The notes under the pieces were generated by a model. That model saw nothing but the letters and a program-made list of their open reading frames with translations. It did no database searches and was not told the origin of the DNA. DNA of 64,000 nucleotides, from the NCBI RefSeq assembly GCF_018141405.1, contig NZ_CP058648.1, forward strand, positions 1,007,001 to 1,071,000, read 5' to 3'. Positions 39,875-47,305 of this stretch are shown here, one piece after another; position 1 is the first letter of the stretch, and each line of letters starts with the position of its first letter. The position numbers were made by a program, and so were the translations under genes. The stretch comes from Serpentinicella alkaliphila (lineage in GTDB: Bacteria; Bacillota; Clostridia; Peptostreptococcales; Natronincolaceae).

Positions 39875-41002
39875 TTATGATAATCTCATTTTAAAATCTT
39901 GATAACCAAATTGATGGATTATATGACATTCCCCTTCTTTATCTTGAAGAGCGATAGCAGGTAAAGGCATTCCGTTAAAAGTAGTATTTTTAACCATTGA
40001 GTAAATAGCCATATCACCAAAAACTAATCTATCCCCAGGTTTTAAAGGCTCATCAAAAGAATAATCACCTATAACATCTCCCGCAAGACAAGTTTGACCA
40101 CCAAGTCTATACGTAAATGGCTTTTCCCCAGATTCTCCAGAACCAAATAGAGGAGGACGATAAGGCATTTCTAATACATCAGGCATATGGCAGGATGCAG
40201 AAGTATCAAGTATAGCTATATCAATTTTGTTTTTGTGAGTATCTAATACAGTTGTAACAAGATATCCAGCATTTAGAGCAACAGCTTCACCTGGCTCTAA
40301 ATATACTTTTAAACCATAGTTATCTTGCATTTTTTTAATACAGCTTTCAAGTAATTGAATATCATAATCTTCTCTAGTAATGTGGTGACCACCACCAAAG
40401 TTAATCCATTCCATTTTTGATAACCATGGTCCAAACTTTTCTTCCACTGCATTTAAAGTTCTCTCTAAATCATCAGAGTTTTGCTGACAAAGAGTGTGAA
40501 AATGTAAACCAGAAATGCCTTCTAATAAATCAGGGCGAAAATGTTCTATTGTTACACCAAAACGAGAACCTGGTGAACATGGATCATATATAGCATGCCC
40601 AACTTGTGTAGAGCATTCAGGATTAATACGTAAGCCCATCTTTTTACCAGCTTTTAATACTTTATCTTTAAATCTTTCTACCTGAGAAAATGAATTAAAT
40701 ATAATGTGATCACAAATAGATATAATCTCATCAATTTCATCGTCACGATATGCAGGGGCGAAAACATGGTTCTCTTTTCCCATTTCCTCATATCCAAGAC
40801 GGGCTTCATATAAACCGCTGGCTGTTGTACCAGTTAAATACTCCCCAATAAGTGGGTACATTTTATACATTGAAAATGCCTTTTGGGCTAAAACAATCTT
40901 ACATCCTGTACGATCCATGACTCCGCGCAAGATTTCCAGATTCCTTATAAGTAAAGCTTCATCTACTACATAGCATGGGGTTGGTAGTTCGTTAAATCTC
41001 AT
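39875..41002 (-). CDS. nspC: Carboxynorspermidine/carboxyspermidine decarboxylase
   Basis: 375 residues, a PLP-dependent fold-III decarboxylase of the alanine-racemase type. The Lys that binds PLP lies near residue 41 (IVLAQKAFSMYKMY). GLHFHTLCQQN, INFGGGHHIT and LEPGEAVAL form the PLP phosphate and specificity sites, and the C-terminal CLAGDVIGDY holds the Cys-Asp pair of the second subunit's active site. It converts carboxyspermidine or carboxynorspermidine to spermidine or norspermidine. It starts 1 nt after the dehydrogenase stop, so the two are co-expressed. Confidence 0.93.
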   Translation of the reverse strand: MRFNELPTPCYVVDEALLIRNLEILRGVMDRTGCKIVLAQKAFSMYKMYPLIGEYLTGTTASGLYEARLGYEEMGKENHVFAPAYRDDEIDEIISICDHIIFNSFSQVERFKDKVLKAGKKMGLRINPECSTQVGHAIYDPCSPGSRFGVTIEHFRPDLLEGISGLHFHTLCQQNSDDLERTLNAVEEKFGPWLSKMEWINFGGGHHITREDYDIQLLESCIKKMQDNYGLKVYLEPGEAVALNAGYLVTTVLDTHKNKIDIAILDTSASCHMPDVLEMPYRPPLFGSGESGEKPFTYRLGGQTCLAGDVIGDYSFDEPLKPGDRLVFGDMAIYSMVKNTTFNGMPLPAIALQDKEGECHIIHQFGYQDFKMRLS

Positions 41003-41003
41003 C

Positions 41004-42203
41004 TTAGTCTACAAGCTCCGGATTGAAGCTTTCTTTCCAAGGTAATCCCCATTTATTTAATGCGTCCATAAATGGATCTGGATCAAATTCTTCAATATTA
41101 AATACACCTTTTTTATTCCATGCTCCTGTCATTAGCATCATGGCACCAATCATTGCAGGAACTCCTGTTGTATATGCTACTGCCTGAGACCCCACCTCTT
41201 TGTAGCATGCTTCATGATCACAAACATTATAGACATAATAAGTTTTGTCTTGTCCATCTTTTTTTCCACGGAAAATACAACCAATATTAGTTTTACCTTT
41301 TGTACGTGGTCCAAGGGAAGAAGGATCTGGTAATACAGCTTTTAAAAACTGTAACGGTATAATTTGTTTTCCTTCGAATTCAATTGGTTCGATTGAAGTC
41401 ATTCCAACATTTTCAAGACATTTTAAGTGTGTAAGATAGCTTTGTCCAAATGTCATAAAGAAACGAATACGTTTTAAGCCAGGTATGTTTACAGCAAGAG
41501 ACTCAAGCTCTTCATGGTATAGTAAGTACATATCTTTTTCACCAATCTCAGGGAAGTTATATACTCTTTTAATTTCCATTGGCTGAGTTTCAATCCACTC
41601 ACCATTTTCCCAATATCTTCCGTTAGCTGATACTTCACGAATATTAATTTCGGGGTTGAAGTTAGTAGCAAATGGATATCCATGATCTCCAGCATTACAA
41701 TCAAGAATATCAATATATTCAATTTCATCAAAATAGTGTTTTAAAGCATAAGCAGAAAACACTCCAGTTACACCAGGGTCAAAACCGCTACCAAGAAGAG
41801 CTGTAATGCCAGCTTTTTCAAAACGCTCACGGTAATCCCATTGCCATTTATATTCGAATTTTGCTGTATCCTCTGGCTCATAGTTTGCTGTATCTAAGTA
41901 ATTTGTTTTAGTTGCTAAACAAGCATCCATTATTGTTAAGTCTTGGTAAGGTAGAGCTAAATTCATAACGATATCTGGTTTTACTTCCTCAATTAAAGCT
42001 ATTAATTCATCTACGTTATTTGCATCTACTTGAGCAGTTGTGATTTTTGTTTTTCCACCGTCAAGTTTAGTTTTTAAATCATCACATTTAGATTTTGTAC
42101 GACTTGCTATACATATCTCTTCAAAGACTTCACTGTTTTGTACACATTTGTGAATGGCTACCTGTGCCACTCCGCCACAACCGATGATAAGTGCTTTTCC
42201 CAT
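41004..42203 (-). CDS. Carboxynorspermidine/carboxyspermidine dehydrogenase (saccharopine-DH-like)
   Basis: 399 residues with an N-terminal Rossmann fold (ALIIGCGGVAQVAIHKC, then CIASRTKSKC) and the saccharopine-dehydrogenase-like middle part (NYLDTANYEPED, LLGSGFDPGVTGVFSAYALK). It joins aspartate semialdehyde to putrescine or diaminopropane with NADPH to make carboxy-(nor)spermidine, which the next gene decarboxylates. AAGGAGA precedes the ATG. A leader of about 490 nt with a terminator 64-111 nt upstream of the ATG suggests control by an RNA switch. Confidence 0.93.
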   Translation of the reverse strand: MGKALIIGCGGVAQVAIHKCVQNSEVFEEICIASRTKSKCDDLKTKLDGGKTKITTAQVDANNVDELIALIEEVKPDIVMNLALPYQDLTIMDACLATKTNYLDTANYEPEDTAKFEYKWQWDYRERFEKAGITALLGSGFDPGVTGVFSAYALKHYFDEIEYIDILDCNAGDHGYPFATNFNPEINIREVSANGRYWENGEWIETQPMEIKRVYNFPEIGEKDMYLLYHEELESLAVNIPGLKRIRFFMTFGQSYLTHLKCLENVGMTSIEPIEFEGKQIIPLQFLKAVLPDPSSLGPRTKGKTNIGCIFRGKKDGQDKTYYVYNVCDHEACYKEVGSQAVAYTTGVPAMIGAMMLMTGAWNKKGVFNIEEFDPDPFMDALNKWGLPWKESFNPELVD

Positions 42204-42266
42204 TTTTCATATCTCCTTATCAAATAAATTTTTTATAGGTTATTACTGTTAATAACCATTTACAAT

Positions 42267-42314
42267 AAAAAAAGCAGGTGTGAAAACGCATAATCGCGCA
42301 CAACACTTGCTTTT
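42267..42314 (-). terminator. Leader terminator before the polyamine operon
   Basis: On the minus strand AAAAGCAAGTGT pairs with ACACCTGCTTTT (one G-U pair) and is followed by a T run. It lies between the mapped promoter and the first gene, so it must be conditional. Confidence 0.75.
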
Positions 42315-42695
42315 AGATATAATCATTCATATTAAAAATAAGTATAGAGTGGCTAATGGCCACATTTATACACTTACCATATAAGTCAATAGACCTTTAG
42401 GTAAAAAGCTTTTTAATATTCAAATATATCTTAGTATCATCAGAGTCTATATAGCAAATAATTACTTTTACTACTCTTATTGACCGTTTCACAAGTTGAT
42501 GTGCATATGCACTGGTTGTAAAGTAACCAACTTATAAAATTTGAGCTTTTAACTCAATCAATAAAGCAACTAAAGTTGCCAATCGGCATTTGACCCGGCT
42601 GTCCGTATGGCCTTAACCTCTTAGGGAAGTGGTCATAATTATCTGCGTGGAAAGACTCAGATAGATATATTGAATAGTAGCTTTCCAACTAACGC
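42315..42695 (-). ncRNA. Structured leader, candidate riboswitch
   Basis: About 380 nt of the leader are rich in pairing. GCGT...GGAAAG pairs with CTTTCC...ACGC (between 42645-42654 and 42681-42695). Smaller hairpins are GCAAC-TAAA-GTTGC (42566-42579), GCC-AATC-GGC (42578-42587), TTGAG/CTCAA (42541-42557), and AAGTTG/CAACTT enclosing GTGCATATGCAC (42493-42533). The core around 42585-42640 is GC-rich and complex. It has faint S-box-like pieces (AAGAGG, GGAC, GGCAAC) but does not fit that consensus. It would regulate the dehydrogenase and decarboxylase genes. Confidence 0.6.
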
Positions 42696-42701
42696 TTCTT
42701 T

Positions 42702-42730
42702 ATTTTAACAGTATATAGTAGAAATAGCAA
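42702..42730 (-). promoter_or_regulatory. Promoter of the polyamine operon
   Basis: On the minus strand TTGCTA (42730-42725) and TAAAAT (42707-42702) are 17 bp apart. The predicted start near 42695 coincides with the 5' end of the first leader helix. Confidence 0.6.
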
Positions 42731-43943: not shown

Positions 43944-45131
43944 ATGAAGGAATTAAAAGATATGGTTTATTGGGTTGGAGCAAAGGACTGGGAAGTAAGA
44001 CATTTTCACGGTTTTGAGTTATCTACCCATAGGGGTTCTACATATAATGCTTACTTAATTAAGGATGAAAAAACTGTGCTGATAGATACGGTATGGGAGC
44101 CACTTACAGAAGCATTTTTACAAAGATTAAAAGAGGTTACAGATATAAGTAAAATAGATTATATAGTGATAAATCATGCAGAGCCTGACCATTCTGGAGC
44201 ATTGCCAGGTATAATGGAATACTGCCCAAATGCGACTATTTATGCATCGAGAAATGGAAAGGGAAGTATAGAAAGACACTACCATAAGCAATGGGATATT
44301 AATATTGTAAAAACAGGGGATAAAATTAATATTGGTGAAAACAATTTAATATTTGTTGAAGCATCAATGCTACATTGGCCGGATAGTATGTTTACATATT
44401 TAACAGGTAAAAACATCTTATTTTCAAATGATGCTTTTGGACAACATTTTGCTTCTTCTGAAATATTTGATGATGAAGTAGATGAAACAGAGGTTTATCA
44501 AGAATCTATAAAGTATTTTGCTAACATACTAACACCCTTTAGTAAACTAGTTATGCAAAAAATAGATGAGCTGAAATCCTTTAACTTGCCTATAGAAATG
44601 ATAGCACCAAGCCATGGAATAATATGGAGAAAACACCCTGTGAGGATTGTTGAAAAATACTACGAGTGGGCGAGTGGAAAGTCAGAAAACAGTGTAGTTA
44701 TTTTTTATAACTCTATGTGGGGAGCGACAAAAAAAATGGCGGAGTACATAGGGAAAGGTTTGGACGAGGTAGGCATAAGTTATAAAATATATAATACAGC
44801 TACAACAGATAAAAATGATTTGCTCACTGAAATATTCAAGTCAAAAGGAATTATATGTGGGTCATCAACTGTTAACAATGGAATACTTAGCTCTTTAGCC
44901 CCAGTACTAGAAGAAATGATTGGACTTAAATTTATTAGTAAAGTGGGAGCTACCTTTGGTAGCTATGGTTGGAGTGGAGAATCAACAAAGGTACTAGAGG
45001 AGTTATTAACAAAAGCAAAGGTTAAAATTATTCAAGACAGTTTCAAGGTTAAATATGTACCAAATAAGGACGAGTTAGAAGAATGCATTGATTTTGGGAA
45101 GAGCTTTGGCAAGAAGTTGCAGGAAAACTAA
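43944..45131 (+). CDS. A-type flavoprotein / flavodiiron protein (FprA type)
   Basis: 395 residues. The N-terminal metallo-beta-lactamase-like part (1-245) carries the diiron site NHAEPDHSG and later iron ligands (LHWPDSM, SNDAFGQHF, PSHGIIW). The C-terminal flavodoxin (about 250-392) has the FMN loop YNSMWGATKKM. Such proteins reduce oxygen to water or nitric oxide to N2O, protecting anaerobes. GGAGGG precedes the ATG. It is monocistronic or followed by the broken Memo gene 52 nt on. Confidence 0.93.
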   Translation: MKELKDMVYWVGAKDWEVRHFHGFELSTHRGSTYNAYLIKDEKTVLIDTVWEPLTEAFLQRLKEVTDISKIDYIVINHAEPDHSGALPGIMEYCPNATIYASRNGKGSIERHYHKQWDINIVKTGDKINIGENNLIFVEASMLHWPDSMFTYLTGKNILFSNDAFGQHFASSEIFDDEVDETEVYQESIKYFANILTPFSKLVMQKIDELKSFNLPIEMIAPSHGIIWRKHPVRIVEKYYEWASGKSENSVVIFYNSMWGATKKMAEYIGKGLDEVGISYKIYNTATTDKNDLLTEIFKSKGIICGSSTVNNGILSSLAPVLEEMIGLKFISKVGATFGSYGWSGESTKVLEELLTKAKVKIIQDSFKVKYVPNKDELEECIDFGKSFGKKLQEN

Positions 45132-45183
45132 GCAAGGGTACAAAATAAAGTATATAGAGCTATCATTAAAAGAGGTGATTCTA

Positions 45184-45480
45184 ATGAGCATTCAGGGGTT
45201 TTATTTGCTTCCTCATCCTCCAATTATAGTTCCAGAGGTTGGAAAGGGAGCAGAGGAAAAGATTAAAAATACTAGGGAAAGTTTAAATGATATAGCTGCA
45301 GATATCAGTATGAAAGGGCCTAGTACAATTATATTAATTACACCACATGGCCCAATGTTTCAAGATGCTATTGCCCTTGCATCAGAGGATGAGATTAATG
45401 GGGATTTAAAGAATTTTGGAGCACCAGAAGTAAAAATGACAATACAATTAAGTAGAGAACTCACAAAGAAGATAATATGA
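45184..45480 (+). pseudogene. Memo/extradiol-dioxygenase-like gene, 5' part cut by an insertion
   Basis: From an ATG with AGAGGTGATT the frame reads SIQGFYLLPHPPIIVPEVG and TIILITPHGPMFQDAI, typical of the AmmeMemoRadiSam Memo-like protein. It runs out at residue 98, in LSRELTKKI, where the insertion element begins. The remainder lies at 47377 and beyond. About 50 residues are missing between the two parts. Confidence 0.8.
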
Positions 45481-45613
45481 ATTAACAAATAAAAGAAAAT
45501 AAATAAAACACTTAAAGCACTTGACTTTTCAGGTGTTTTTTTATGTTTTTTCAATAAAATTATTGTTGTGAGCTGTAGTTAGTTATTGGTATAATAGAAG
45601 AGGGTGCCATTTT

Positions 45614-47305
45614 ATGTATATAAGACTAAGTAAAGGTAATACTTCAAAGTTCACAAAAGTATATCTTGTTGAAGGTTATCGAGATGAAAATGGTAAGTCA
45701 AAACAACGAATAGTTAAGTCATATGGTAATCTTGAGGAGTTAGAAGCAAAAGATCCAAATATACTTCAAAAGTTAAAAGACGAAGCAAAAAATATGACCA
45801 AAAACCAGGTGAATATTACTCTTAATCTTAATAGTTCCAATGATGATATGGAAGTAGACCAAAACTATGGTTACTTCTTTTTAGAAAGACTTTATGAAGA
45901 TCTAGAAATATCTAACTTCTTTAAAAATAAGATGAATAATAAAAAATATGTTTTTGACGTGGATCAAGTTTTCAAACTTCTTCTTTATAGTAGGATACTA
46001 AATCCAGCTAGTAAAAAGGCGACAGTTGAGAATCGAAATCAATTCTTTGAACCCTTTGATGTGACTTTAGATTCTGTCTATGAAACTCTATCATTGATGA
46101 AGGAGATTAAGGGCGATCTACAGCTACATCTTCATAGAAAGATTACCGAAACCCAAGGAAGAGATACCTCGCTCATTTTCTTCGATGTAACCAATTATTA
46201 TTTCGAGACAGAAATTGAAAATGAGTTAAAAAAGGTTGGTGTTTCAAAAGAGAAAAAAAGAACACACATTGTTCAAATGAGTCTAGCTATCGATCAAGAA
46301 GGACTGCCTGTTGGCTATGAGCTTTTCTCTGGTAATACCCATGATAGTACAATGTTGATTCCATCTATGATTGATATGAAAGAGCGATATAAAATGGGTA
46401 GAGTTATATTAACAGCTGATAAAGCGCTCAATAGTGGTAAAAATCTCGCATTTCTTGTTAGCAATGGTGATGGTTACATAGTTTCACAAAAGGTAAGAGG
46501 CTCATCTAAAGCATTCATAAATAAGATATTAGAAGATGATGGCTATGTCTATAACGACTCGAAAACATTTAAAATCAAATCTTTTCTAAGAGAAAGAAGT
46601 ACAAAAGATGAAAATGGAAATGATGTCTTGCTAAAAGAAAAAGTAGTTGCTTTCTGGTCACAAGATTTTGACTCAAGAGAAAAACATAAAAGAGAGTTAT
46701 TAGAAGATAAAATTAACGAGTACCTTACTAATCCTTCAAAATACAAAGCTTCAAATCGACATGGGATAAAAAAATATTTGAAAGAAATTGAAGTTGATAC
46801 AATAACCGGTGAAGTAGAAGATAAAAAAACAATTTTAAAATTTGAACAGGATAAATATGAAAGGGATGTAGCCTTAGATGGCTATTATGCCCTAGTAACA
46901 AGTGAAATAGACATGCCTGATTCGGATATTATTGAGAGGTATAGGGGGCTTTGGAGGATTGAAGACTCATTTAGAGTTTTGAAATCGGACCTAGAAGGCC
47001 GTCCTGTTTATGTTAGAAGAGAAGATCGCATAGAAGGACACTTTCTATTATGCTTTGTAGCCCTTCTAATGACAAGACTTCTAGAGAATAAACTATGCAA
47101 TAAGTATTCGATTAGAAAAATACAAGAGGCTTTAAAAAATGCTACTTGCAGAAAAATCACCAGTGGAATCTATTCATTAAACAAACAAGATGATGTGTTT
47201 AGAACCTTAGAAAATGCTTATGATGTATCTCTTAATTATAAAAACGTCAGGATAGAGCAGATTCGTTTATACCGAAAGGAAATAGTTCACAACGTCAAAA
47301 ACTAA
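45614..47305 (+). CDS. IS1634-family transposase
   Basis: 563 residues and uninterrupted. DDE-fold segments include LIFFDVTNYYFETE with the first Asp, VILTADKALNSGKN with the second, and GLWRIEDSFRVLKSDLEGRP with the final Glu. The last has the (Y)-x2-R-x3-E-x6-K order usual in IS4-superfamily enzymes. AGAGGGTG precedes the ATG. It appears intact and may be mobile. A 14-bp stem terminator follows. Confidence 0.9.
   Translation: MYIRLSKGNTSKFTKVYLVEGYRDENGKSKQRIVKSYGNLEELEAKDPNILQKLKDEAKNMTKNQVNITLNLNSSNDDMEVDQNYGYFFLERLYEDLEISNFFKNKMNNKKYVFDVDQVFKLLLYSRILNPASKKATVENRNQFFEPFDVTLDSVYETLSLMKEIKGDLQLHLHRKITETQGRDTSLIFFDVTNYYFETEIENELKKVGVSKEKKRTHIVQMSLAIDQEGLPVGYELFSGNTHDSTMLIPSMIDMKERYKMGRVILTADKALNSGKNLAFLVSNGDGYIVSQKVRGSSKAFINKILEDDGYVYNDSKTFKIKSFLRERSTKDENGNDVLLKEKVVAFWSQDFDSREKHKRELLEDKINEYLTNPSKYKASNRHGIKKYLKEIEVDTITGEVEDKKTILKFEQDKYERDVALDGYYALVTSEIDMPDSDIIERYRGLWRIEDSFRVLKSDLEGRPVYVRREDRIEGHFLLCFVALLMTRLLENKLCNKYSIRKIQEALKNATCRKITSGIYSLNKQDDVFRTLENAYDVSLNYKNVRIEQIRLYRKEIVHNVKN

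Follow-up and report, generated by a model that had tools for sequence, protein, structure and literature searches.

A large leader RNA upstream of polyamine genes in Bacillota: a strong candidate for a polyamine riboswitch class catalogued in part as an sRNA

The leader and its operon

The window, i.e., the whole 64-kb stretch of DNA that was analysed, encodes on its minus strand a carboxy(nor)spermidine dehydrogenase (synthase) gene (41004-42203), which matches Pfam Sacchrp_dh and, below that model's cut-off, the carboxynorspermidine synthase-like model NF043000 (E 3e-127). It is followed by nspC, for carboxy(nor)spermidine decarboxylase (39875-41002; TIGR01047, E 1e-149, above cut-off). The two genes are preceded on the same strand by a leader of about 490 nt, which has a promoter at its start and an intrinsic terminator at its end, followed by a Shine-Dalgarno sequence (AAGGAGA, 42212-42218) and the start codon. 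The promoter matches the consensus, with the -35 hexamer TTGCTA (42725-42730) and the TG-extended -10 hexamer TAAAAT (42702-42707) separated by a spacer of 17 nt. A lone match of this kind is not above chance (3 found vs 4.3 expected). Among the homologous loci, sigma-70-type promoters scoring at least 10/12 are found upstream of 79/139, against 10/139 when shuffled, which is a strong enrichment.

The leader (42261-42694) has a fold energy of -121 kcal/mol (z -5.1, equalled by 0/100 shuffles). Folding and covariation both point to the terminator (42264-42313), whose 5' arm GCAAGUGUUGUG lies at 42299-42310; it has an energy of -16.1 kcal/mol (z -3.3), with a T run after the stem, and was missed by a simple terminator scan because the stem has internal loops. 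An earlier note on this DNA had placed the promoter hexamers at these very positions and had described a structured leader, a long closing helix, a terminator and downstream genes for carboxyspermidine dehydrogenase and decarboxylase. All these features are real, the closing helix according to the MFE fold and to the strand-swapping tests given below.

One sub-domain is catalogued as an sRNA

Searching with cmscan (Rfam 15), we found a match to RF02440, "Streptococcus sRNA SpF59 (ldcC RNA)", at 42583-42635 (70 bits, E 1.5e-10, gathering threshold 37.2). The match is full-length (model positions 1-54 of 54) and is the sole Rfam match in the whole window; at E up to 5, there was no other credible Rfam match to the leader. 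The SAM-I (RF00162), T-box (RF00230) and lysine (RF00168) riboswitches, which share with this RNA the terminator/antiterminator layout in Bacillota leaders, were rejected because none gave a covariance-model match up to E 5. The earlier note had likewise judged that the core, despite some "S-box-like pieces", does not fit the SAM-I consensus, and that the T-box sequence is absent. By our search, these pieces are not SAM-I.

RF02440 proves to be just one sub-domain of an RNA of about 250-300 nt. Its 54-nt model spans about one-fifth of this RNA, is typed "Gene; sRNA" with no assigned function, ligand or cis role, and lacks the helices P0-P8 and the expression platform that are present here, whereas many homologues retain the 3' core without the RF02440 domain. 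The note had also called the leader a candidate new riboswitch and had stated that a confident match to a known family would refute this. There is such a match, yet a 54-nt functionless "sRNA" family does not explain the element. The element is therefore not wholly unknown, and "new" needs qualifying, since part of it is a confident Rfam match.

The namesake of the family, pneumococcal F59, lies between SP0915 and SP0916 in S. pneumoniae, upstream of the decarboxylase gene SP0916 (PMC3395615). The RNA at this locus (srn235/F59/Spd_sr49, TIGR4 869478-869804) is 327 nt long, about the length of a terminated leader, and figures as an uncharacterised sRNA in a 2025 survey (PMC12323649). The Rfam label "ldcC RNA" shows that the gene association had already been noticed by someone. 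In the openly readable literature on ldcC RNA, SpF59/srn235, polyamine or spermidine riboswitches and riboswitch discovery, no description of the full RNA was found, and a fuller account may exist elsewhere.

Distribution and downstream genes

A search with RF02440 alone found 18/398 Bacillota genomes, and in these near-identical sequence continues for 150-200 nt beyond the family's limits. A pattern of the 3' core matched at least 120 stretches of genome contigs and was found in 14/291 genomes of the same class. A covariance model built from the 3' domain (R1) was found in 24 of the 398 Bacillota genomes sampled (about 6%), as a single copy in each and in some without the RF02440 domain, and in 38/398 genomes of the class containing genome G393. 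The core pattern fixes part of the core, and conservation there is partly by construction for the loci collected in this way; the set collected with RF02440 is free of this bias. The named hosts include Heyndrickxia coagulans, Bacillus testis, several Paenibacillus, Acetobacterium, Faecalibacterium prausnitzii, Phascolarctobacterium, Pectinatus, Blautia and Kurthia.

The gene association is exclusive. Downstream sequence was readable in 145 loci, and the genes that come next there form only four protein clusters, all polyamine-related: ornithine/lysine/arginine decarboxylase (55), SpeD (39), carboxyspermidine dehydrogenase (31) and PotA (20). No function beyond these four classes was found among the 145 loci, and such a steady association with the genes of one metabolic pathway is as expected of a riboswitch. 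Cluster representatives were checked with NCBIfam, PotA via a single representative. The decarboxylase matches are below the curated NCBIfam cut-offs, so that its substrate may be any of ornithine, lysine and arginine; some loci counted as decarboxylase have speD first and the decarboxylase second. SpeD (0/15) and NspC above cut-off (0/15) were not detected in the genomes that have the RNA ahead of PotA, several of which are incomplete metagenome assemblies, and most of these 15 genomes hold a decarboxylase of the same fold. The genome of the window encodes SpeD and two such decarboxylases elsewhere, yet we found no second copy of the RNA in it. In PotA loci such as L050, L099, L147 and L153, there is a hairpin insert between GCCGA and UUGGC, and these loci possibly form a sub-class.

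The range of controlled genes bears on the ligand. A riboswitch could respond to something other than an end product, e.g., SAM, decarboxylated SAM, agmatine, a carboxyspermidine intermediate or an amino acid that serves as precursor, and the genes do span pathways with different precursors. We consider this unlikely. The same aptamer stands before SpeD, before the SAM-independent dehydrogenase route and before PotA in genomes where neither SpeD nor NspC was detected, which makes a biosynthetic intermediate improbable as the common ligand. What the SAM-dependent route, the dehydrogenase route, the decarboxylation of amino acids and import have in common is their products alone, and the simplest interpretation is feedback by spermidine or a closely related polyamine.

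Structure and covariation of the aptamer

Two long-range helices close the structure. We tested them by comparing, for each locus, the pairing of its own two strands with that obtained when strands are exchanged among loci. P0, the outermost helix, pairs 42664-42686 with 42403-42430 in the MFE fold, and own strands pair better than swapped ones (z -7.1 over 95 loci; z -2.8 over the 17 carboxyspermidine dehydrogenase loci). P1 pairs GCAGAUAAUUA (42636-42646) with UAAUUAUUUGC (42454-42464) and also covaries (z -6.5). Dehydrogenase leaders have an extra structured linker between aptamer and terminator, which in the window occupies 42315-42440 and contains a hairpin, GUGGCCAUUAGCCAC, as well as the 3' strand of P0.

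Within P1, domain I (42583-42635) corresponds to RF02440 and, by cmscan and covariation, consists of a UGACC/GGUCA helix, a hairpin and a GGC/GCC hairpin with a CGG loop (42603-42605). This loop is invariant in 36/36 sequences, likely forms a pseudoknot with CCG at 42584-42586, and is missing, along with the rest of domain I, from other loci. The P2 hairpin follows (GGCAAC-UUUA-GUUGCU, 42565-42580), with double changes in 4/5 pairs. P3 pairs UUAUUGA (42558-42564) with UCAAUAA (42477-42483) in the alignment and is near invariant, with a compensatory change in the divergent locus L174. It encloses the covarying P4 hairpin (UUGAG-CUCAA, 42541-42557), the 10-bp helix P5, formed by UUUUAUAAGU (42530-42539) and 42487-42496 and paired in 99% of cells, and the covarying hairpins P6 (GGUU/AACC) and P7 (GUGC/GCAC) at 42501-42528. 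The segment GAGUAGUAAAAG (42465-42476) is near invariant and comprises the P8 5' strand (GAGU, 42473-42476) and a strongly conserved joining segment, possibly the ligand site. The P8 3' strand, ACUC (42443-42446), would form a pseudoknot with this GAGU and is invariant in the 70 sequences of alignment A1. In the MFE fold, ACUC pairs instead with a GAGUC further 5', and two conformations are possible.

An alignment of 36 full aptamers fits a 65-pair model with two pseudoknots, in which 92.7% of cells are paired. Covariation among homologous leaders, which had been proposed as a check, was found: 22 pairs show double changes, with 126 double-change cells vs 39 in shuffles (0/500), and sliding the 3' partners lowers pairing to 35-44%. 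In the alignment of the 3' domain (70 sequences), 93.8% of cells are paired and 12 pairs show double changes. The 5' UTR thus has the conserved and covarying aptamer-like structure expected of a riboswitch. A further helix, P9 (AGUA/UGCU), was proposed by RNAalifold when the 3' domain was folded by itself; it competes with P1, and we discarded it after adding the 5' strand.

P3, P5, P8 and the CGG/CCG pseudoknot are too conserved for covariation, except in rare divergent members. In L174, P3 (UGUUGA/UCAACA) and P8 (GAGC/GGCUC) are altered on both strands. In a divergent RF02440-positive branch, the GGC/GCC hairpin is flipped to GCC/GGC while the same CGGA loop is kept; the genomes of this branch are near 2 Mb in size, and it is a single genus of the G393 class, by inference Streptococcus. 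Loci L174, L207, L214 and L208-L216 are strongly divergent or rearranged. In L207 and L214, the 5' half is altered, yet CUUGUGAAAACGAUU..GUAAGAGU and the downstream decarboxylase are retained. The RF02440 domain and the CCG segment are absent from many loci (e.g., L034, L035, L052 and L076), which indicates that domain I is optional, the 3' core being essential.

These comparisons also bear on attenuation by a leader peptide, in which the ribosome would stall while translating a short ORF ahead of the genes. A 44-codon ORF with a TTG start (42554-42688) is readable in the leader. The corresponding frame is open in only 18/97 homologues, so that the ORF is not conserved, and a leader peptide was rejected on this ground; moreover, domain I is absent from many loci, and indels disregard codon phase. 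We give this explanation almost no credence.

The terminator/antiterminator switch

The segment CACAUCAACUUGUG (42490-42503), which carries the 3' strands of P7 and P5, is complementary to the terminator 5' arm (42299-42310), and would be its alternative partner, i.e., the antiterminator. This long-range pairing covaries: over 96 non-redundant loci, own pairs reach -11.4 kcal/mol vs -9.0 kcal/mol with swapped terminators (z -11.2). In the controls, z lay between -1.7 and 1.6 for the 3' arm and for each of five shifted segments, and was -2.3 for the reversed core. The effect persists (z -8.2) when only the eight bases that lie upstream of the pattern-fixed part are counted. On these comparative grounds, we read the signal as compensatory evolution between aptamer and terminator. 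Since the strand cannot pair in P5/P7 and with the terminator arm at the same time, a stabilised aptamer should leave the terminator free to form, as in an OFF switch. The comparison thus reveals an expression platform of the general riboswitch kind, in which terminator and antiterminator are mutually exclusive. In the window itself, the antiterminator has about 10 kcal/mol vs 16 for the terminator and, being the weaker, would have to act kinetically.

The covarying antiterminator argues against a small RNA that acts in trans and is encoded upstream of polyamine genes by chance. RF02440 is typed as an sRNA, and the pneumococcal F59/srn235 was discovered as one; a review of pneumococcal sRNAs names it in connection with lung infection (PMC4387999). 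Yet the RNA stands upstream of four polyamine gene types in about 145 loci, and its antiterminator covaries with a terminator just ahead of each gene, which makes a trans-acting role improbable. The F59/srn235 sRNA is best explained as a terminated leader.

The same anatomy is less discriminating for a protein-dependent attenuator, in which a polyamine-sensing RNA-binding protein, and not a metabolite, binds the leader: the switch would be identical whichever factor stabilises the aptamer. Metabolite aptamers typically have large, near-invariant unpaired segments, and those of this RNA fit such an aptamer. Furthermore, the gene that follows the leader encodes in every case a polyamine enzyme or PotA and never a regulator, a count that covers linked genes only. 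We thus regard a protein attenuator as rather unlikely, and infer that a small molecule binds, that it is spermidine-like and that the switch is of the OFF type.

A candidate polyamine riboswitch class

The leader probably acts in cis as an OFF riboswitch that terminates transcription in response to a polyamine, the likeliest ligand being spermidine or a close triamine. Its structure, its exclusive gene association, its terminator and the mutually exclusive antiterminator are shown by comparing homologous sequences. When the ligand is scarce, CACAUCAACUUGUG would pair with the terminator 5' arm, no terminator would form and the operon would be transcribed. When it is plentiful, the pseudoknotted aptamer (P0/P1, domain I, P2-P7 and P8) would keep CACAUCAACUUGUG in P5/P7; the terminator would then form, and polyamine synthesis or uptake would stop. 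Gene association, covariation and the covarying antiterminator lend good support to the transcription-attenuating, riboswitch-like layout proposed in the earlier note. Of the ligands listed there, a polyamine stands as the best guess, given the logic of the controlled genes, whereas SAM, lysine and aspartate-derived compounds are disfavoured.

Polyamines bind all RNA, and selective polyamine sensing by RNA is contested for this reason. In the literature found, the sole validated natural class is a rare variant of SAM-I, a spermidine riboswitch with a four-stem aptamer and 13 representatives that controls speE, speB and ldcC by intrinsic termination in Gram-positive bacteria (PMC10853860). It is a functional analogue of the RNA described here, with the same gene context and the OFF logic that we propose. 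Our RNA differs from it in having no RF00162 match up to E 5, other helices, a considerably larger size, pseudoknots and a far wider distribution, and is a separate architecture. The authors of that study expected that further polyamine riboswitch classes surely remain to be found (PMC10853860). The speF and odc1 motifs (the latter described in PMC8632094) are likewise upstream of polyamine decarboxylase genes; the leader has no Rfam match to such families, and is set apart from them by this search only.

We thus rate the leader RNA as a strong candidate: it may represent a new and widespread class of polyamine riboswitch that has been hidden as an "sRNA". On balance, we favour an unrecognised class that senses spermidine or a similar polyamine and, across Bacillota, governs uptake as well as three entry points into biosynthesis. 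Its aptamer would be pseudoknotted and about 250-300 nt long, and no more than a fragment of this RNA has been catalogued so far. If so, it would be a common and independent RNA solution to polyamine sensing, present in gut commensals (Faecalibacterium, Blautia and Phascolarctobacterium), in Paenibacillus and Bacillus, and in the divergent RF02440-positive branch, and the unexplained pneumococcal "sRNA" would become a terminated riboswitch leader. The large size and near-invariant core make this RNA an attractive structural target.

Upstream of the leader, a transposase-like ORF of 563 aa (45614-47305) comes directly after an apparently truncated ORF that ends at 45480, and this arrangement (45088-47305) is possibly an interruption by an insertion sequence.
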